From NCBI RefSeq assembly GCF_004944975.1, contig NZ_SPQG01000003.1, positions 1-47,987 on the forward strand: a DNA stretch of 47,987 bases, in the 5' to 3' direction. The DNA comes from Halorhabdus amylolytica (GTDB taxonomy: Archaea > Halobacteriota > Halobacteria > Halobacteriales > Haloarculaceae). The stretch's first letter is position 1. Every line of letters begins with the position of its first letter. Shown piece by piece: positions 4,829 to 15,040 of the stretch. Under the pieces are notes generated by a model. The model worked only from the letters and a program-made list of their open reading frames with translations, did no database searches and was not told the DNA's origin. A program made the position numbers and the translations under genes.

Positions 4829-5485
4829 TTACTTCAGCGCGGGACTCTCGCGGTCGCCCCAGTCGTCGAGGAAGGCTTCGAGCCCGCTGTCGGTGCGCGG
4901 GTGGTCGAACATCGAATCGGCGACAGCCGGCGGCAGGGTCGCGATATCGGCACCCGCCTTGGCGACCTCCTGGACGTGGTAGGGATGGCGGATCGACGCC
5001 GCGAGAATGTCCGTCTCGAAGTCGTAGTTGTCGTAGACTTCGCGGATATCCTCGATGAGGCCGACGCCGTCGTGGCCGTTGTCGTCGAGCCGGCCGATAA
5101 ACGGCGAGACCATCGTCGCGCCGTTCTTGGCGGCGATCAGGGCCTGGTTGACCGAGAACACCAGCGTGATGTTGGTCTGGACGCCCTCGTCGGTGAGCGT
5201 CTGCAGGGCCTTCATGCCGTCGCGAGTCATCGGCAATTTGACGGCGATGTTGTCGCCCCAGGTGTCGTACTCGCGGGCCTCTTCGAGCATGCCCTCGTAG
5301 TCGGTGGCGATGACCTCGACGCTGATGGGGCCGTCGACGAACTCGTCCAGTTCGTCGATGATATCACGATACTCCCGGTCAGTCGAAGAGACCAGCGACG
5401 GGTTCGTGGTGACCCCGTCGACCAGTCCCAGTTCGTCCGCTTCTCGTACCTCCTCGACGAACGCTGAGTCGATATATGTGCGCAT
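4829..5485 (-). CDS. tal: Transaldolase (TalC/MipB-like, small form)
   Basis: A 218-aa class I aldolase-fold enzyme that moves dihydroxyacetone units between sugar phosphates. The Schiff-base Lys83 sits in NIAVKLPMT, Asp6 in YIDSA, and VTTNPSL is at 25-31. The motif SPFIGR (127-132) has Phe129, where transaldolases have Phe and fructose-6-phosphate aldolases have Tyr. I therefore favour transaldolase over F6P aldolase. It is last in a minus-strand operon, 20 nt after the C-terminal transketolase subunit, so the two enzymes of the non-oxidative pentose phosphate pathway are transcribed together. The reaction is confident at family level; the exact substrate range is inferred. Confidence 0.9.
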   Translation of the reverse strand: MRTYIDSAFVEEVREADELGLVDGVTTNPSLVSSTDREYRDIIDELDEFVDGPISVEVIATDYEGMLEEAREYDTWGDNIAVKLPMTRDGMKALQTLTDEGVQTNITLVFSVNQALIAAKNGATMVSPFIGRLDDNGHDGVGLIEDIREVYDNYDFETDILAASIRHPYHVQEVAKAGADIATLPPAVADSMFDHPRTDSGLEAFLDDWGDRESPALK

Positions 5486-5505
5486 GATCAGTTGTGTTAG
5501 TGGAC

Positions 5506-6438
5506 TTACTCCAATAGCCCTTTCGCCGTCTCGGCGATGTCCTCGCCGGTGAAGCCGTAGTACTCGTAGAGGTCGAGTCCGTTTCCGGAGGTGCCGAACT
5601 CGTCTTCGATGCCGACGCGCTTCATCGGTGTGGGGCGCTGTTCGGCGAGTACCTCGGCGACGGCGCTACCCAGGCCGCCGTAGATGTTGTGGTCCTCGGC
5701 GGTGAGGATCGCGCCGGTCTGCTCGGCGGACTCGACGACCAGTTCCTCGTCGAGGGGCTTGATCGTCGACATGTTCACGACGCGGGCGTCGATGCCGTCC
5801 TCGGCCAGGACCTCGGCGGCTTCCTGGACGACGTGGACCATCGCGCCGTGGGCCATCAGCGTCACGTCAGACCCGTCACGAAGGATCTCGCCCTCGCCGA
5901 TCGTCGGCTCGTACTCGTCCTCGTCGTGGATGACGGGGACGGATTCCCGGATCAGTCGGAGATAGGCGGGATCGTCGTCGTCCGCCAGCGCGGTGACCAG
6001 GGCGTTGGCCTCGACGGCGTCGGCCGGCGAGATGACGCGCAGGTTCGGCAGGCCGCGATAGGCAGAGATGTCCTCGATGGTCTGGGCGCTCGGGCCGTCC
6101 TCGCCCGTGATGACGCCGGCGTGGCTGCCGACGACGGTCACGTTGCGCTTCGGGCGGGCGATCTGCTGGCGCACCTGCTCGAAGCCACGCTCGGAGAAGA
6201 TGGCGAACGTGTTGGCAAAGACCGGTCGGCCGGTCTCGGCGATGCCGGCCGCCGTCGCGAACAGATCCTGCTCGGAGATGCCCACGTTGATCCAGCGCTC
6301 GGGGTACTCGTCGCGGAACCAGCCGCCCCGGGTGGATTTGGCCAGGTCGGCGTCCATGACGATGAAGTCCTCGCGTTCCTCAGCCTCGCGCAGCAATCCG
6401 TTCCCGAAGCCGTTCCGGGTCGATATCTTCTCGCTCAT
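5506..6438 (-). CDS. tktB: Transketolase, C-terminal subunit
   Basis: A 310-aa protein matching the pyrimidine-binding and C-terminal domains of transketolase, as in split archaeal enzymes. The catalytic Glu56 (in VGISEQDL) activates the thiamine diphosphate carried by the partner subunit. GPSAQTIEDISAYRGLPNL is the typical middle segment, and the C-terminal domain ends about residue 300. Its ATG overlaps the stop of the N-terminal subunit by four bases (ATGA), a sign of translational coupling and 1:1 assembly. Transaldolase follows after 20 nt. It transfers two-carbon units between ketose and aldose phosphates. The gene symbol is only suggestive, as naming of split archaeal subunits varies. 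Confidence 0.92.
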   Translation of the reverse strand: MSEKISTRNGFGNGLLREAEEREDFIVMDADLAKSTRGGWFRDEYPERWINVGISEQDLFATAAGIAETGRPVFANTFAIFSERGFEQVRQQIARPKRNVTVVGSHAGVITGEDGPSAQTIEDISAYRGLPNLRVISPADAVEANALVTALADDDDPAYLRLIRESVPVIHDEDEYEPTIGEGEILRDGSDVTLMAHGAMVHVVQEAAEVLAEDGIDARVVNMSTIKPLDEELVVESAEQTGAILTAEDHNIYGGLGSAVAEVLAEQRPTPMKRVGIEDEFGTSGNGLDLYEYYGFTGEDIAETAKGLLE

Positions 6439-7316
6439 TTGGTCGTCACCTCCGCGGTCGCGGGGTCGAAGCCAAGTTCCTCGAGGGCCTCGTCGAACTC
6501 CTCGTCGGTCAACGCGCCGGCGTGATAGCCGTTGGGTTGGGCCTCCATGAAGTCTATCGGGTGACCCTTGACGGTGTTGGCGATCAGTAGCCGCGGGCCG
6601 TCGGTGGCGTTGATCTCCTCGAAGGCGTCGGCGATCTCCCCGAAGTCGTGGCCGTCGACCTCCCAGACATCCCACCGGAAGGCCTCGAACTTCTCGGCCA
6701 GTGGGTCGATCTCCATCGTCTCGGCGACGGGGAGGTCGTTCTGTTTCTTGTTGCGGTCGACGATCGCGACGATGTCCAGCTCCTTCTCGCCGGCCGACAT
6801 CGCGGCCTCCCAGATGTTGCCTTCCTGGGTCTCGCCGTCGCCCAGAATGGCGTAGACGTCGTACTCGGCGTCGTCGAAATCGGCACCCATCGCCTGACCG
6901 TTGGCGTAGGACAGTCCCTGGCCGAGCGATCCAGAGGGGAACTCGACGCCCGGGACCTTCGGTGAGGAGTGACCCGGGAGTGCCCCGCCGAGGCGACGGA
7001 ACTCCTCGTTGGGATCAACGTCGATGAAGTCGTACCGTTCTAGCAGTGCATACAGCACCGGACAGGCGTGCCCTTTGCTGTAGATGAGCCGGTCACGATC
7101 CGGATCGTCGGGATTCTCGGGGTCGACGTTCAGTTCCTCGTTGTACAACCAGAGCAGATACTCCACGGCAGACAGCGAGCCGCCCGGATGGCCCGACTGT
7201 GCCGCGTAGACCATCTCGACGATGTCCCTGCGGACCTCCTGTGCCGTCTGGCGATACGCTTCGATTCGCTCGTCCAGATCGCCGTCTGGCGCTCGATTAC
7301 CAGGCAAGTTTTTCAC
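6435..7316 (-). CDS. tktA: Transketolase, N-terminal (thiamine diphosphate-binding) subunit
   Basis: Contains the thiamine diphosphate-binding half of transketolase. AQSGHPGGSLS lies near the N-terminus, YSKGHACP binds substrate, and the metal/diphosphate motif is GDGETQEGN. I chose the GTG at 7316 (VKNLPGN...), giving 293 aa. This matches family length, and a TATA-like stretch (TTTTTA on the minus strand, about 7344-7350) sits about 30 nt upstream, as expected for a leaderless message. An ATG at 7364 in the same frame would add 16 unlikely residues. It is first in the operon with the C-terminal subunit and transaldolase. Confidence 0.9.
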   Translation of the reverse strand: MKNLPGNRAPDGDLDERIEAYRQTAQEVRRDIVEMVYAAQSGHPGGSLSAVEYLLWLYNEELNVDPENPDDPDRDRLIYSKGHACPVLYALLERYDFIDVDPNEEFRRLGGALPGHSSPKVPGVEFPSGSLGQGLSYANGQAMGADFDDAEYDVYAILGDGETQEGNIWEAAMSAGEKELDIVAIVDRNKKQNDLPVAETMEIDPLAEKFEAFRWDVWEVDGHDFGEIADAFEEINATDGPRLLIANTVKGHPIDFMEAQPNGYHAGALTDEEFDEALEELGFDPATAEVTTK

Positions 7317-7595
7317 CCACGAAAGATTCCCCTTCTCGCGAGTAAAAAGCTTCCCATTTCGCACGATTCACGAACTGAGAAGGCGGTATAGCCCAAATAT
7401 CGGGAAGAAATTGAACGTCTGGCGGGGAACGACGCAGGCGCGGAATAAATGATTGAACGTGATTGTCCCGGACGAGGAACACGATTCTGCCGGGACACTC
7501 ATCGGATTCGACGGACAAACTAGGTGACGCCCGTGGTCCGTCGAACGCCGGGAATCAGTCGGACGGTTCGCCAGAGCGGCCCGGACGCACAGATA

Positions 7596-9271: not shown

Positions 9272-9838
9272 TCACGTCGGGTCCCAGCGGTCGTAGCAGT
9301 CGTGATCGAGGTCGAAGCGTTCGAGAATCTTCCCGACGACGTGATCGACGAAGTCCGCGGGTTCCTGGGGATCGAAGTAGAATCCGAGCACCGGCGCCAC
9401 GACGTCGACGCCCATGCCTGCGAGTTTCGTGAGGTTCTCCAGGTGGATCTGGCTGAACGGTGTCTCCCGCGGAACGATCACAAGTTGGCGGCGTTCCTTC
9501 AGCGTGACGTCGGCGGCCCGGGTCACCAGCGAGTCCGCGCGGCCGGTGGCAACGGCCGCGACGGTGTTCATCGAGGCCGGCACGATCACCATGCCGTCGG
9601 TGTCGTACGAGCCTGAGGCGATCGGTGCGCCCACCTCACTCTCGCCGTACAGTTCCGTTGACGCTTGCCGAAGTCGACCCATCGTCGCCTCGCGTGAGCC
9701 GGACTCGTGGGCCATCACCGACTCGGCGGCGTCGGTAACCACGGTGTAGACCTCGGCGTGCTCGACGAGTGCTTCGACTGTCCGAACGGCGATCGGGATC
9801 CCCGAGGCACCCGTCACGCCGACGACGATCCGTTCCAC
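9272..9838 (-). CDS. ubiX: Flavin prenyltransferase UbiX/Pad1
   Basis: A 188-aa flavoprotein that attaches a dimethylallyl group to FMN, making the prenylated FMN required by UbiD-family decarboxylases. The N-terminal GVTGASGIPIAV binds flavin, PASMNTVAAVATG is the central nucleotide-binding part, and KERRQLVIVPRETPFSQIHL followed by FYFDPQ is the conserved C-terminal half. It is the last of four closely packed minus-strand genes, 2 nt after the aconitase X small subunit, with the UbiD-like decarboxylase at the head of the operon. That arrangement strongly suggests it serves that decarboxylase. Confidence 0.93.
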   Translation of the reverse strand: MERIVVGVTGASGIPIAVRTVEALVEHAEVYTVVTDAAESVMAHESGSREATMGRLRQASTELYGESEVGAPIASGSYDTDGMVIVPASMNTVAAVATGRADSLVTRAADVTLKERRQLVIVPRETPFSQIHLENLTKLAGMGVDVVAPVLGFYFDPQEPADFVDHVVGKILERFDLDHDCYDRWDPT

Positions 9839-9840
9839 GG

Positions 9841-10269
9841 TTACACCCGCCTGATGGTACCCGCGTCGGCGTCGACCGCGACGGTCTCGCCGTCCTCAAG
9901 GCTGTCCAGATCAGCCGCGGGCGAATCCACACAGGGTATCTCCCCGAGAATCGCCCCTGTCGCGACGATGGTTTCGGTCTCTTCGTTGACGATCGCTGCG
10001 GGCGCACAACCGTTGTTCGCCAGGCCGTAGAGGACGTACGAGCCCACCGTCGATCCCTTCCCGCGCGCGAAGACAAGCACTTTCCCAGTTATGTTTTCGC
10101 CCTCCAGGGGATGGCCGTCCTCGATGAACTCGCCGGTGTCGGGTTCGACAGCGCCGTAGAAACTGATCGGCACGGGTGAGCGCAGGACCTCCCCGCGACC
10201 CGTGCCCTCGGTGATCGGTTCGGCATCGATCGCTTCCGGGGCCGTCTCGTTGCTCGCTTCCGAAGTCAT
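9841..10269 (-). CDS. Aconitase X small (swivel, DUF126) subunit; probable phosphomevalonate dehydratase small subunit
   Basis: A 142-aa protein with an acidic N-terminal extension (1 to about 35) and then the swivel domain. The signature ARGKGSTVGSYVLYGLANN lies at about 68-86 and AILGEIPCVDSP at about 106-117. In archaea this protein pairs with the DUF521 catalytic subunit to dehydrate (R)-5-phosphomevalonate to trans-anhydromevalonate 5-phosphate. Its ATG overlaps the large-subunit stop by one base (TAATG), so translation is probably coupled. The KGSTVGSY form resembles archaeal two-subunit enzymes, not hydroxyproline dehydratase fusions, though this is from memory of the family. Confidence 0.85.
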   Translation of the reverse strand: MTSEASNETAPEAIDAEPITEGTGRGEVLRSPVPISFYGAVEPDTGEFIEDGHPLEGENITGKVLVFARGKGSTVGSYVLYGLANNGCAPAAIVNEETETIVATGAILGEIPCVDSPAADLDSLEDGETVAVDADAGTIRRV

Positions 10270-11447
10270 TACTCAGTCACCTCCGCCAGCAGCGTCTCCT
10301 TGTCGTTGAACGCCACGTCCTGGTTACAGAATCCCGGGAGATACGTCGCTGCCTTCGCCGAGTCGGTCGCGCTGGATTCGTAGCCCAGTTCCTCGATCGG
10401 CGAGACGACGTTGCAGGTGTCGGCAAGCACTTTCCCGCCGGCCGTTTCGATCGTCTCAGTCAGTCCGTTGCGATCGGCCCAGGTCTTGACCGATGCGCTC
10501 GTACAGACCCACAGATCGCTGGTGAGGGCCTTGCCTTCGACGGTCGCCGCCACGTCCTGGATCTCCTCGGGCGAGCAATGCGGACACCCGATGACGACGA
10601 GTTCCGGATCGTCGGCGGTGGTGAGTTCCGCGTACTCTTCTTCGAGTTCTCCTTCGCCGAACGTCACCGTCTCGACGTTTTCGGGTGGGTCCATCTCCGT
10701 CGTCACATCCTCGACGAAGTGGAGTGCGACCGCGCCGGTCGCAGCCATCGCCGCACCGAGTGATTTCAGGTCGTCCGTTCCGCCCGAATCGATCCCGGCG
10801 AAATACGGCTTGCCGTCCTCGACGAGTCGGCCCGTCCAGGAGCCAAGCGCTGCGAAGTCGGCCTGGCTCTCGATGTCGGCTTCGACGTCGATGCGGTAGG
10901 TCGGCTGGCGATTCTCCTCGAGATGGAGTCCATACTTCGGCGTCCGGCCGGTGATCGCCGCGGCCAGTGCCGAGGGACCGCCCTCACGGTTGGTCTTTGC
11001 GCCGACCACACTGTTGACAAAGGAAACGGCAGAGGATTCCGCCCAGGCGACGTGCTGGCCACGTCGCGGGAGATTCCCCGCGAGATAGGGGGTACAGGTA
11101 AAGGATAGGACGATCCCCATCTCCTTGAGCGCGTCTCGAATGCGCTTCTGTTTGTCGGCGAACGCCTCGTCGATTCCGAGTTCCTCCCAGCGCTCGAAGT
11201 CCATCCCCGCAGGGTTGGCGAACGTCGGAACCGAGGTCTCGGCGCCTTCCTCGGCGAAGCCTTCTAAGAACTCTACGCCGGGGTCACCGATCGACTTGTA
11301 GGAGATGCCCGAGGCCTGGGCGGACTCGATCTCGATCATTTCCTCGGCGCCGTAGATATCACCGAGTTTCACAAGCAGTTCCATCGCCTTCCGGACGGCA
11401 TCGTTGTCCGATTCGAGTAAGTCTTCCTCGTGCTGTGTCAGGTGCAT
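10269..11447 (-). CDS. Aconitase X catalytic (DUF521) subunit; probable phosphomevalonate dehydratase large subunit
   Basis: A 392-aa iron-sulfur dehydratase subunit beginning MHLTQHEEDLL. Three cysteine motifs that bind the [4Fe-4S] cluster in the family are present: TCTPYLAGN, IGCPHCSPEEI and ADTCNVVSP. GAKTNREGGPSALAAAITGRTP is another strong signature. With the small subunit directly downstream and a UbiD-like decarboxylase 29 nt upstream, the best reading is phosphomevalonate dehydratase of the archaeal mevalonate pathway. Alternatives are other aconitase X activities such as hydroxyproline dehydratase, but UbiD/UbiX company argues against them. The ATG at 11447 fits the family N-terminus. 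Confidence 0.87.
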   Translation of the reverse strand: MHLTQHEEDLLESDNDAVRKAMELLVKLGDIYGAEEMIEIESAQASGISYKSIGDPGVEFLEGFAEEGAETSVPTFANPAGMDFERWEELGIDEAFADKQKRIRDALKEMGIVLSFTCTPYLAGNLPRRGQHVAWAESSAVSFVNSVVGAKTNREGGPSALAAAITGRTPKYGLHLEENRQPTYRIDVEADIESQADFAALGSWTGRLVEDGKPYFAGIDSGGTDDLKSLGAAMAATGAVALHFVEDVTTEMDPPENVETVTFGEGELEEEYAELTTADDPELVVIGCPHCSPEEIQDVAATVEGKALTSDLWVCTSASVKTWADRNGLTETIETAGGKVLADTCNVVSPIEELGYESSATDSAKAATYLPGFCNQDVAFNDKETLLAEVTE

Positions 11448-11476
11448 GGCTGATAGTGATGGTTCTGTGGCAGTCG

Positions 11477-12778
11477 TTATCGATAGTCTTCGAGGTCGAT
11501 CTCCTCGGCACCGGGCACGGTCACTTCGGCGAAATCCGCGCGGTCCCGGTCGCCGGGCACAGTTGCGTCGACGATCCACTTCGCGAGCGTCCCGCGATCG
11601 TAGTCCTGGGACGGATCCAGGGACGATCCCTTGGCGTTCTCGATGAGGGTGATGTCCTCGTCGGGTTGCATCCGCGTCGCGGTTGCCCACTCGACAGCCG
11701 TCGGATCCGCGGGATCGATGTCGCTGTCGACGACGGTAACCTTCTTCATCGACGGGTGACCCGCAAGTGCGGCCATCCCGGCGTTTTTCGGATCCCCCTC
11801 CGTCCGCTTGTCGATCTGGACGACGCCGTGGAGCCACGAACACCCCCCGGGCGTCAACACGACGTTCTCGACCGTCGGGACGGTGTTCTCGACGATCCGG
11901 TAGATCCTGGGTTCCTGTGGGATCCCCATCAAGTGGGCGTGTTCGGTCCGGCCGGGGACGATGATCCGCGCGTACGGATCAGGACGCATATAGAGCTCCG
12001 CGACAGTCACGACTGGTTGCTGTCGCGTGCGATCCCACGTCCGGGAGAGGTCGACGAACGGCCCCTCTTCGCTTCGCTCGTCGGTGATCGTCGCGCGCAT
12101 GACCATCTCGGCGTCGACGGGCACGGCGATCCCGTCGGCGTCGGCGATAGCCAGGTCGCCGTCGAGCAGCCGATTGGCCAGTGCGAGTTCGCTCTTCTCT
12201 GGCGCGAAGGAGGTCGCCGCCGCGAGTTCGACCGCCGGGTGGACGCCCATCACGATCGCCACGTCGAGGCCACCCTCCGTCCGGGTATAGATGTCGTGAA
12301 GGTGGCGCTCGACCAGTCGCATGACGACCCGATTGCCTTCGTCGAACATCATCCGATGGAACGAGCAGTTGGTGACGCCAGTCTCGGGGTCCTCGGCGAT
12401 CACGACCGAGGAGGCGAAGTACTGGCGTTCGTGTTCGTCGTAGAAGATCGGAATCGGAACGTGCTCGTCGATCGTCGGATCGCTCGCGACGTGCTCGAAA
12501 GACGGGTCGGCTGTCTCCTCGACGGGTAGCGGATCGTCCATCGCCGACCCCATCGCCTCGACGATCTCGGTGGGTTGGATGCCCAGCGCCCGGCCGATCA
12601 TCTCCCGGGAACCGAGCGTGTTGGCGACCGCGCGGACGTCAGGATAGCCCTCGACGCGCTCGAAGACTGTCGGCCTGGTCTCGTCCGTTACGGCCAGTGC
12701 CGGGAGTTCAAAGCGCGGATCGACGGGTTCTGTGAGCGTTGTCTGCTCCTCTCCGGCCAGAAAGTCTCGTAAACCCAT
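11477..12778 (-). CDS. ubiD: UbiD-family decarboxylase; probable trans-anhydromevalonate 5-phosphate decarboxylase
   Basis: A 433-aa prenyl-FMN-dependent decarboxylase. Recognisable parts are an N-terminal MGLRDFL, the prFMN/metal-binding area around TNCSFHRMMFDEGN, and the active-site stretch RPDPYARIIVPGRTEHAHL with acidic residues in the usual places. Its length is close to that of archaeal anhydromevalonate phosphate decarboxylases and shorter than many bacterial UbiD proteins. It heads a tight operon with aconitase X large and small subunits and ubiX. Reaction inferred: trans-anhydromevalonate phosphate to isopentenyl phosphate plus CO2. The ATG at 12778 was preferred over an upstream one at 12796 because it starts at the conserved MGLRDFL. 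Confidence 0.87.
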   Translation of the reverse strand: MGLRDFLAGEEQTTLTEPVDPRFELPALAVTDETRPTVFERVEGYPDVRAVANTLGSREMIGRALGIQPTEIVEAMGSAMDDPLPVEETADPSFEHVASDPTIDEHVPIPIFYDEHERQYFASSVVIAEDPETGVTNCSFHRMMFDEGNRVVMRLVERHLHDIYTRTEGGLDVAIVMGVHPAVELAAATSFAPEKSELALANRLLDGDLAIADADGIAVPVDAEMVMRATITDERSEEGPFVDLSRTWDRTRQQPVVTVAELYMRPDPYARIIVPGRTEHAHLMGIPQEPRIYRIVENTVPTVENVVLTPGGCSWLHGVVQIDKRTEGDPKNAGMAALAGHPSMKKVTVVDSDIDPADPTAVEWATATRMQPDEDITLIENAKGSSLDPSQDYDRGTLAKWIVDATVPGDRDRADFAEVTVPGAEEIDLEDYR

Positions 12779-12917
12779 GATAGACGGTCCTTGCACGGCA
12801 TCCTATTCATGTGCTGGGGTCTGCTCCCGGCAGTTGGGAACGCCCGTCTGGACTGACCCGCGGACTCGCCATCGGCAGATCGGGAATTTAGTAGGGACCG
12901 TCTTCGTACCTCCGGAC

Positions 12918-13679: not shown

Positions 13680-13800
13680 ACTCGGCCTCTCCCGACCATG
13701 GTTAGTCGGACGGGACAAAGCCCCGATTCGGCGTTCACGAGAGCGAAGCTCTCGTGCAGCCCATCAGGTTTCTACGAAACCTGAGGACGTCACGGTTCCT
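13640..13800 (-). ncRNA. Probable omega (right-end) guide RNA scaffold of TnpB
   Basis: This region overlaps the tnpB 3' end and the element right end. Read on the minus strand it forms successive hairpins: 13765-13783 (CAGGTTT/AAACCTG, containing the tnpB stop), 13736-13756 (CACGAGAGC/GCTCTCGTG), 13692-13711 (CCGAC/GTCGG) and 13647-13669 next to the end. In TnpB systems such a transcript folds here and its 3' extension beyond the element supplies the guide. The guide would thus be the minus-strand sequence just below 13640, which is the alaX 3' end. Function is inferred from family knowledge; the hairpins are seen directly. Confidence 0.6.
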
Positions 13801-14975
13801 GACTTCAGGGCGAGTTGACTGTCACCCGTCCGCCGCGACGACTGTAGGCCGCGACGGACGTACCGCCACCCAACATTCTTCGAACCCACGTAATCCGCAT
13901 TCTGAGTTACTCCGCACGACTCACACTCGAATTCCGCCTGTCGCACTCGGTTGCCCTTGCTCGTGTGCCCACATTCGGGACAGCGCCGACTCGTGTTCTT
14001 CGGGTCTACAAACTCGACGCTAATCCCCTCGGCGTCAGCCTTGTACTCCACGAGGTCAACGAGCTGTCGGTGGGCCCACTGGTGGAACTCTTTGACGGGC
14101 GGCGCACGCTCTCGGATGTGCTGTAGATTCTCGAATGCGATGTACTCGCAGTCGTGAGTACGTGCGTCTTCGAGAATCTGGTTCGCAACTTGATGGAGTT
14201 GGTCACGAAGATACCGTGATTCTCTCCCACTCATCTGCTGAATCGTCCGATGGGCGGATTGTGTCCCAGTCTGCTGGAGATTACCGCGAATCCGCTCGAA
14301 CTCTCGATGCTGGTGTCGAAGTTCTCTGCCGGAGGCGAAGTACGCTGTCGAGGTGGTGGCGATGTTGACGATGCCGAGGTCAACGCCGAGAACTGTCCTG
14401 TCCTCGTCGTCATCCTGTATTTCGACCTGTTTTTCGGGTTTGTCTTTGCGAAACCCGAGGTGCAGGTAGTATTCGTCATCACGCTTTGACAGCGTAGACT
14501 CTGTTACTTCCCACTCCTCATCGGTGAGGTATTCGTGTTGATACCCGTCTTCTTCGTTGGGGAGGTTCAGGTCACACCGAATCCGACCCTTGACAGTGGC
14601 AAGCGAAACAGACCCGTCCTCGAACAGTATCATCGTCCGGGTGTCGTATTTCACCGTGTTGCTGGTAAATTCAGGTCGGGACGTTTTGTCGTGTTCATCA
14701 AGCTCTTCGATTGCTTCGACACCATCGAGTGCGGCTGCGGCTTGGTGGGTGGCGAGAATTACGTGCTGACTCCCGAGACGTGTTTCCTCCAACACTGTGT
14801 CGTAGGCGAGGTCTTGGAGGTAGGTTTTCCGCGTCTCACCTGCATCCCATCCGATGCGACTGCTGATGTTGCAGGCAGTTTTCCACTCGCTGATGGTGGC
14901 GTCGAGCAAGTCCTGTTGCTCGTCGGTGAGGATGGGGCGGGTGATCGCAGTGCGTCTCAGGTAGTCGTCTGCCAC
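13764..14975 (-). CDS. tnpB: TnpB RNA-guided nuclease, intact
   Basis: A 403-aa OrfB/IS1341-type protein starting VADDYLRRTAITRPIL at a GTG; a TTG three codons upstream is an alternative. RuvC catalytic residues are all present: Asp199 in GVDLGIVNIAT, Glu282 in IAFENLQHI and Asp361 in QNADYVGSKN. The zinc finger Cys332-x2-Cys335 and Cys351-x2-Cys354 (CPECG, CESCG) is intact. It should therefore be able to cut DNA with its right-end RNA. Its 3' end overlaps the guide RNA scaffold. It is a different TnpB subfamily from the fragment at the left edge. No tnpA lies nearby, so movement would need one in trans. Confidence 0.93.
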   Translation of the reverse strand: MADDYLRRTAITRPILTDEQQDLLDATISEWKTACNISSRIGWDAGETRKTYLQDLAYDTVLEETRLGSQHVILATHQAAAALDGVEAIEELDEHDKTSRPEFTSNTVKYDTRTMILFEDGSVSLATVKGRIRCDLNLPNEEDGYQHEYLTDEEWEVTESTLSKRDDEYYLHLGFRKDKPEKQVEIQDDDEDRTVLGVDLGIVNIATTSTAYFASGRELRHQHREFERIRGNLQQTGTQSAHRTIQQMSGRESRYLRDQLHQVANQILEDARTHDCEYIAFENLQHIRERAPPVKEFHQWAHRQLVDLVEYKADAEGISVEFVDPKNTSRRCPECGHTSKGNRVRQAEFECESCGVTQNADYVGSKNVGWRYVRRGLQSSRRTGDSQLALKSGTVTSSGFVET

Positions 14976-15040
14976 TATTTTCAATAGAAGGTAGAGTTAG
15001 TTAATAGCCCGTGGTTTGTGGTAGCAAGTGTCGGCTTCAA

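Follow-up and report, generated by a model that had tools for sequence, protein, structure and literature searches.

Does a haloarchaeon that already has phosphomevalonate decarboxylase (PMD) also carry the archaea-type branch of the mevalonate pathway? According to reviews and to a survey of 229 archaeal genomes published in 2024, the Halobacteria rely on PMD alone (PMC10040528, PMC9385802, PMC11052028). The question is raised by four genes in a 47,987-nucleotide stretch of Halorhabdus amylolytica DNA, termed the window, which are predicted to encode phosphomevalonate dehydratase (PMDh), anhydromevalonate phosphate decarboxylase (AMPD) and a flavin prenyltransferase.

A four-gene operon in Halorhabdus

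In the window, which comes from a Halorhabdus genome, the minus strand carries the genes one after another in the order UbiD, AcnX large, AcnX small, UbiX:

11477..12778, minus strand: UbiD-family decarboxylase, read as AMPD (433 aa, ATG start; UbiD domains, AcnX-linked clade)
10269..11447, minus strand: AcnX large, read as the PMDh large subunit (392 aa; AcnX domain and residues)
9841..10269, minus strand: AcnX small (swivel), read as the PMDh small subunit (142 aa; GKGSTVGSY motif)
9272..9838, minus strand: UbiX flavin prenyltransferase (188 aa, GTG start; profile scores)

The tight spacing described in the sequence-only reading, a 29-nt gap, a 1-nt overlap and a 2-nt gap, is correct to the base. 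An alternative UbiD start is the GTG at 12796. Pfam matches comprise the N-terminal, middle and C-terminal UbiD domains, AcnX (490 bits), the AcnX swivel domain (113 bits) and Flavoprotein (134 bits). A family-by-family search of the host genome found that these are its sole copies, with one UbiD, one AcnX and one such UbiX. In PMDh (type IIb AcnX), the large and small subunits are distinct proteins with adjacent genes, as is the case here.

The arrangement is not a product of chance, because the identical order recurs in 18 of 18 haloarchaeal genomes that have an AcnX of the operon type, and dN/dS within Halorhabdus is 0.03-0.21 for genes of the set. Purifying selection acts on both routes, with values of 0.03-0.13 for AcnX large, UbiD and PMD.

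AcnX subunits resemble phosphomevalonate dehydratase

PMDh has three cysteines for a [4Fe-4S] cluster, which are C122, C297 and C356 in Aeropyrum pernix. The large subunit from the window has C118, C288 and C345, which align with C110, C283 and C342 of the T. kodakarensis (Tk) enzyme and are found in 19 of 19 haloarchaeal sequences. The Tk PMDh (7CNS) contacts 5-phosphomevalonate through G48, V49, S50, N53, N79, P80, S130 and K361 (PMC10040528). The substrate-contact positions of the window protein are G47, I48, S49, S52, N78, P79, S138 and K365, and seven of the eight contacts are identical or conservatively replaced in all 19 haloarchaeal sequences. The exception is N53, which is serine in all haloarchaea and is variable in other archaea as well (T, N or M). 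A further reported contact is Thr63. The Tk large subunit has Arg at position 63, whereas the small subunit has S63 and T64 in a GKGST stretch that is kept in the window.

Both subunits match the Tk enzyme (7CNR) from end to end, with 337 bits for the large subunit and E = 5e-32 for the small one. Grouping with hydroxyproline dehydratases had been named beforehand as the outcome that would count against the present assignment; these enzymes reach only 184-189 bits, and the scores and residues together rule out that identity. AcnX proteins of the same superfamily with fused subunits give about half the score and have different phosphate-pocket residues. The two window subunits score 245 and 81 bits relative to a cut-off of 700. 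The haloarchaeal large subunits form a single clade in the AcnX tree (support 100/99). The large and small subunits of Halorhabdus utahensis are 95% and 92% identical to those of the window. Structure prediction with AlphaFold gave models of unusable quality for AcnX large (mean pLDDT 43) and UbiD (mean pLDDT 52).

UbiD and UbiX

The UbiD tree places the window protein with archaeal UbiDs that are linked to AcnX (support 100/98) and apart from other haloarchaeal UbiDs. It does not group with ordinary UbiDs, such as vanillate decarboxylase-like enzymes or the other haloarchaeal types. Residues 238-243 read EGPFVD, a signature that is common to AcnX-linked archaeal UbiDs and is present in nearly all UbiDs of the set and of the AcnX-linked group (the variants are one DGPFVD and one EGPYVD). 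Other UbiDs with a recognizable motif have EGPFG[ED] instead, and EGPFVD was not found among the unlinked haloarchaeal UbiDs that were read.

The UbiX protein scores 206.2 bits against a cut-off of 188 (NF004685) and 193.8 against 108.9 (TIGR00421). Its family occurs in nine of nine set-bearing haloarchaea, compared with none of the 11 others tested.

A predicted second route beside PMD

The sequence-only reading, which called the host haloarchaeal only conditionally, offered three possibilities: that both routes are present, that one was swapped for the other, or that the set serves a different acid. The genome is that of Halorhabdus, and it encodes PMD (MvaD, 591.8 bits against a cut-off of 475), mevalonate kinase (MVK, 270 against 163) and isopentenyl phosphate kinase (IPK, 177 against 120); the catalytic motifs of PMD are intact. 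Thus both routes occur together, and a swap is excluded, as PMD-family matches are present in all 391 haloarchaeal genomes as well as in the host.

The cluster cysteines, the 5-phosphomevalonate contacts and the UbiD clade with its EGPFVD signature bear out the earlier suggestion that the set most likely encodes PMDh and AMPD with their own cofactor maker. Together, the four genes very probably constitute an archaea-type mevalonate branch that runs parallel to the haloarchaeal PMD. The enzyme activities in the host organism are inferred from sequence. The AcnX subunits would dehydrate 5-phosphomevalonate to anhydromevalonate phosphate, and UbiD would decarboxylate the trans form of this compound to isopentenyl phosphate by using prenylated FMN, presumably supplied by the UbiX of the operon. 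IPK would then yield IPP. PMD would accomplish an equal net step in a single ATP-consuming reaction. A complete second, ATP-saving route in addition to the universal haloarchaeal PMD is therefore the most likely reading of these genes, and runs contrary to the literature on Halobacteria.

Distribution and clusters that include PMD

Although PMD is found in 391 of 391 haloarchaeal genomes, the four-gene set is confined to 18, which represent six of 86 genera: Halorhabdus, Halapricum, Halococcoides, Halodesulfurarchaeum, Halalkaliarchaeum and probably Halanaeroarchaeum. In a concatenated tree, which bears on vertical inheritance versus transfer within haloarchaea, the data remain compatible with a Haloarculaceae clade (AU p = 0.14).

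Four genomes from two genera (G001, G007, G093 and G346) have PMD as a fifth gene in the cluster, 67-82 nt after UbiX; these PMDs are annotated MvaD and score 572-590 bits. The presence of PMD inside the cluster ties the set to phosphomevalonate. As far as we have read, this clustering appears to be unreported in the literature. A polyprenyl diphosphate synthase gene lies upstream of the cluster in G001 and G007, the two genomes checked. Across genera, no conserved flanking genes of note were found outside Halodesulfurarchaeum and g53.

Alternative explanations

The set might instead be a catabolic dehydratase/decarboxylase pair that acts on a different hydroxy acid, leaving PMD as the only source of isopentenyl phosphate. 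A second route is evidently unnecessary for viability, given that PMD is universal in haloarchaea, and AcnX large is at most 46% identical to any AcnX large from outside haloarchaea in the set examined. However, the kept substrate contacts, the AcnX-linked UbiD clade with its common signature, and PMD in the same cluster in two genera make this alternative improbable. In the single further haloarchaeal AcnX (G271), by comparison, the NP and S contacts to the phosphate are gone, which is what use of another substrate would predict. Still less probable is that the four genes are a nonfunctional relic of an ancestral archaeal pathway replaced by PMD. AcnX is present in 159 of 164 genomes of the same phylum outside Halobacteria, and patchy loss inside the class would fit a relic. 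But a relic would be hard to reconcile with four genes that are open and in order in every genome that has them, with the low dN/dS, with the retention of all catalytic residues examined, or with a UbiX that accompanies the set and is kept by no other haloarchaeon tested.

The favored, but unproven, reason for having two routes is conditional use: the ATP-free, oxygen-sensitive route would be used in anoxic, energy-poor conditions, and PMD in air. Both might instead be constitutive and simply raise isoprenoid flux, with no oxygen or energy switch. This dosage explanation, which challenges only conditional use and not the enzyme assignment, is less likely than not. Where PMD is clustered with the set, co-expression seems indicated rather than alternation, and two obligate anaerobes of g17 (G007 and G001) hold a second PMD-like gene. 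In contrast, the Halorhabdus PMD is on a different contig from the operon, so regulation of the two routes can differ there, and the set occurs mostly in lineages with anaerobic members.

A possible link to anaerobic life

Holders of the set lean toward anaerobes, with exceptions. They include the obligate anaerobe Halodesulfurarchaeum formicicum HSR6 (G007; PMC5437934), the facultative sulfur respirer Halalkaliarchaeum desulfuricum (G359; PMC6176080) and the fermenting Halorhabdus utahensis (G050; PMC3035240). The link is imperfect: Halococcoides cellulosivorans (G002) has the set though described from aerobic cellulose cultures (PMC10267330), G346 has the set and also a terminal oxidase, G129 has neither COX1 nor the set, and strict anaerobes that rely on PMD alone exist (PMC11052028). 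COX1 is lacking in three of 18 set holders and one of 62 others (Fisher p = 0.034, for genomes that are not independent by descent), and its absence is a weak marker of anaerobes. Anaerobic ribonucleotide reductase is uninformative as a marker, being present in six of seven Halorhabdus genomes and nowhere else among the 391.

We tentatively propose, as an idea slightly more apt to fail than to hold, that a subset of haloarchaea has a two-lane mevalonate pathway. An ATP-free, oxygen-sensitive PMDh/AMPD lane with a private supply of prenyl-flavin and an ATP-using, oxygen-tolerant PMD lane would be chosen according to the supply of oxygen and energy, and the joint cluster in Halodesulfurarchaeum and its sister genus would be a living intermediate in the change from PMDh/AMPD to PMD that has been proposed.

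Relation to known pathways

Intact dual routes in cultivable haloarchaea, in some genomes within one cluster, would permit a direct test of whether PMD took the place of the ancestral archaeal branch, as has been supposed. Which lane carries flux, when it does so, and whether selection acts through oxygen or through the supply of ATP become testable questions. Salt-adapted, mesophilic PMDh and AMPD enzymes could also be useful for ATP-saving isoprenoid production.

The set shares its gene families, three cluster cysteines and substrate contacts with the archaea-type pathway of A. pernix and Methanosarcina mazei. Unlike these organisms, Halorhabdus has PMD as well, and belongs to a class that the literature excludes from that pathway. 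PMD, MVK and IPK are held in common with the haloarchaea-type pathway (PMD and IPK) of Haloferax volcanii, to which Halorhabdus would add another full path that leads from 5-phosphomevalonate to isopentenyl phosphate. Two mevalonate variants per genome are also indicated in Hodarchaeales (Asgard), where a single contig of metagenome-assembled genomes encodes AMPD/AcnX together with PMK/DMD (PMC11052028). There, however, the second variant is of the eukaryote type, whereas here it is of the haloarchaea type, occurs in cultured haloarchaea and is clustered with the set in Halodesulfurarchaeum and its sister genus. The order UbiD, AcnX large, AcnX small is also found in relatives within the phylum. 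In methanogen-side loci with UbiX nearby, UbiX precedes the set, whereas in Halorhabdus it follows.

A putative second mevalonate branch in Halorhabdus

The assembly that holds the window (as contig C20) has 26 contigs and 3.46 Mb and belongs to Halorhabdus (genus group g1), alongside Halorhabdus utahensis (PMC3035240) and Halorhabdus salina FL145. Four adjoining genes in it have names with which both Pfam and NCBIfam agree:

12778..11477, minus strand, UbiD
11447..10269, minus strand, AcnX large subunit
10269..9841, minus strand, AcnX small subunit
9838..9272, minus strand, UbiX

The order and spacing given in the sequence-only reading are exact: UbiD and AcnX large lie 29 nt apart, the two AcnX genes overlap by 1 nt, and UbiX follows after 2 nt. 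The set is very probably a phosphomevalonate dehydratase (PMDh, the AcnX pair) plus an anhydromevalonate phosphate decarboxylase (AMPD, the UbiD), an assignment based on sequence comparison. Each subunit aligns over its full length with its counterpart in the solved T. kodakarensis AcnX pair (337 bits for the large one, E = 5e-32 for the small one). When an alignment was checked against the residue list of PMC10040528, the three cluster cysteines were found in 19/19 haloarchaeal AcnX sequences. The 5-phosphomevalonate contacts are likewise kept in 19/19, N53 alone differing (S); this position is variable outside haloarchaea as well (T, N or M). The contact reported as Thr63 has no clear counterpart, as residue 63 of the T. 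kodakarensis large subunit is Arg.

The UbiD tree proposed as a check on this assignment groups the window protein with AcnX-adjoining UbiDs of methanogens and Thermoproteota (100/98). The remaining haloarchaeal UbiDs and 6H6X, which resembles vanillate decarboxylase, fall elsewhere. The window UbiD and AcnX-linked UbiDs have EGPFVD in common, at a position where unlinked UbiDs with a findable motif carry EGPFGE or EGPFGD. By comparison, EGPFVD is a signature of the AcnX-linked UbiDs and a candidate specificity determinant. UbiDs of some kind occur in 117/391 haloarchaeal genomes; the only set-free genomes with similar scores are G119, G308 and G326, and their UbiDs fall outside the AMPD clade.

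UbiD enzymes require prenylated FMN. UbiX was found in 9/9 set holders versus 0/11 other haloarchaea tested. With UbiX tracking the set and a single UbiD in the window genome, no further partner for the UbiX of this genome is apparent. Some set-free haloarchaea (for example, G061 and G016) encode a UbiD-family protein of ~500 aa but give no match to UbiX model NF004685.

Coexistence with phosphomevalonate decarboxylase

Among the options raised from the sequence alone was that the genome has both routes, and a genome search bears this out, as phosphomevalonate decarboxylase (PMD) and isopentenyl phosphate kinase are both present. PMD lies on contig C9 (NF040704 MvaD, 591.8 bits; cut-off 475) and keeps Lys, Ser, Arg and Asp motifs, whose roles we take to be those assigned in the decarboxylase family. 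Mevalonate kinase (TIGR00549, 270; cut-off 163) and isopentenyl phosphate kinase (177; cut-off 120) are separated by about half a kilobase on contig C12. Neither route has the look of a relic: comparisons among Halorhabdus genomes give dN/dS values of 0.03-0.09 (AcnX large), 0.10-0.14 (AcnX small), 0.09-0.13 (UbiD), 0.12-0.21 (UbiX) and 0.10-0.13 (PMD).

In four other genomes (G001, G093, G346 and Halodesulfurarchaeum formicicum HSR6, G007), PMD resides 67-82 nt past UbiX on the same strand. This clustered PMD scores 572 bits against MvaD in G007 and 590 bits in G093, and is the sole TIGR01240 match in G093 and the sole strong one in G346. A polyprenyl diphosphate synthase gene is ~1.8 kb upstream on the opposite strand in G007 and G001, and related open frames lie close to the set in genus g53. 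This neighborhood of PMD and polyprenyl diphosphate synthase is the strongest evidence for phosphomevalonate as the substrate of the set. Away from the cluster, G001 and G007 each have another PMD-like gene (loci L110 and L111), ~52% identical to the clustered one (L055 and L053). The second gene of G007 scores 389 against the MvaD cut-off of 475, yet its catalytic motifs are largely kept.

Halobacteria have been described as PMD-only (PMC10040528, PMC9385802, PMC11052028). Two mevalonate variants likewise occur in one genome in Asgard archaea (PMC11052028). What appears to be new is the coexistence and clustering of known enzymes with PMD in haloarchaea; earlier literature may already mention haloarchaeal holders of the set.

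Distribution and origin

PMD-family matches are found in 391/391 genomes of class Halobacteria, and AcnX of the set type in 18, all of which (18/18) have the set complete and ordered. The holders are 7/7 Halorhabdus genomes, 4/5 Halapricum genomes (including H. hydrolyticum), Halococcoides cellulosivorans (PMC10267330), and two genomes each of g17 (including H. formicicum HSR6; PMC5437934), its sister genus g53 (probably Halanaeroarchaeum) and g82 (including Halalkaliarchaeum desulfuricum AArc-Sl; PMC6176080). Outside Halobacteria, AcnX is present in 159/164 genomes of the phylum.

One further, divergent AcnX pair occurs in G271 (genus g25; contig C6, L056:5762-7494, minus strand). It is missing the phosphate-contact residues, neither UbiD nor UbiX is matched next to it, and it is probably a different dehydratase.

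Haloarchaeal AcnX large subunits form one clade (100/99) outside that of the rest of the phylum (100/99). Vertical descent within Haloarculaceae is not rejected by a tree of concatenated proteins (AU p = 0.14). The pattern fits an early single presence with many later losses, and equally a single gain that then spread.

A possible link to anoxia

Both lanes would start from 5-phosphomevalonate, made by mevalonate kinase. PMD would convert it to isopentenyl phosphate in one step at the cost of one ATP (PMC11052028); PMDh and then AMPD would do so in two steps with no ATP. The [4Fe-4S] cluster of PMDh is needed for activity, which is lost in air (PMC10040528). Isopentenyl phosphate kinase would complete either lane by forming IPP.

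Obligate anaerobes are found among the set holders, as are fermenters and facultative sulfur respirers. Since the PMDh cluster is air-sensitive and UbiD needs prenylated FMN, the second lane suits anoxia, and its conditional use there is a tentative reading that we rate slightly below even. COX1 is missing in 4 of 80 genomes checked, namely G001, G007 and G093, which hold the set, and G129, which does not (p = 0.034, uncorrected for descent). G129 (family f10, genus g61; 2.7 Mb), with neither a COX1 match nor the AcnX set, may also be an anaerobe and does not fit the proposed link; the set holders Halococcoides and G346 depart from it in the opposite direction.

NrdD, the anaerobic ribonucleotide reductase, is encoded in the window genome (C3:97732-99456) and in five other Halorhabdus (6/7 in all); a search of the remaining 384 haloarchaeal genomes found it in none.

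Other genes near the operon

Upstream of the operon, just past an AlaX-like gene, is a TnpB/OrfB-like transposon protein with a zinc-finger motif (13764-14984, minus strand), a homologue of which is also near the operon of G093. A few kilobases downstream are a predicted transaldolase and a transketolase apparently split into two adjoining genes (4829-7364, minus strand), which are unusual in haloarchaea.
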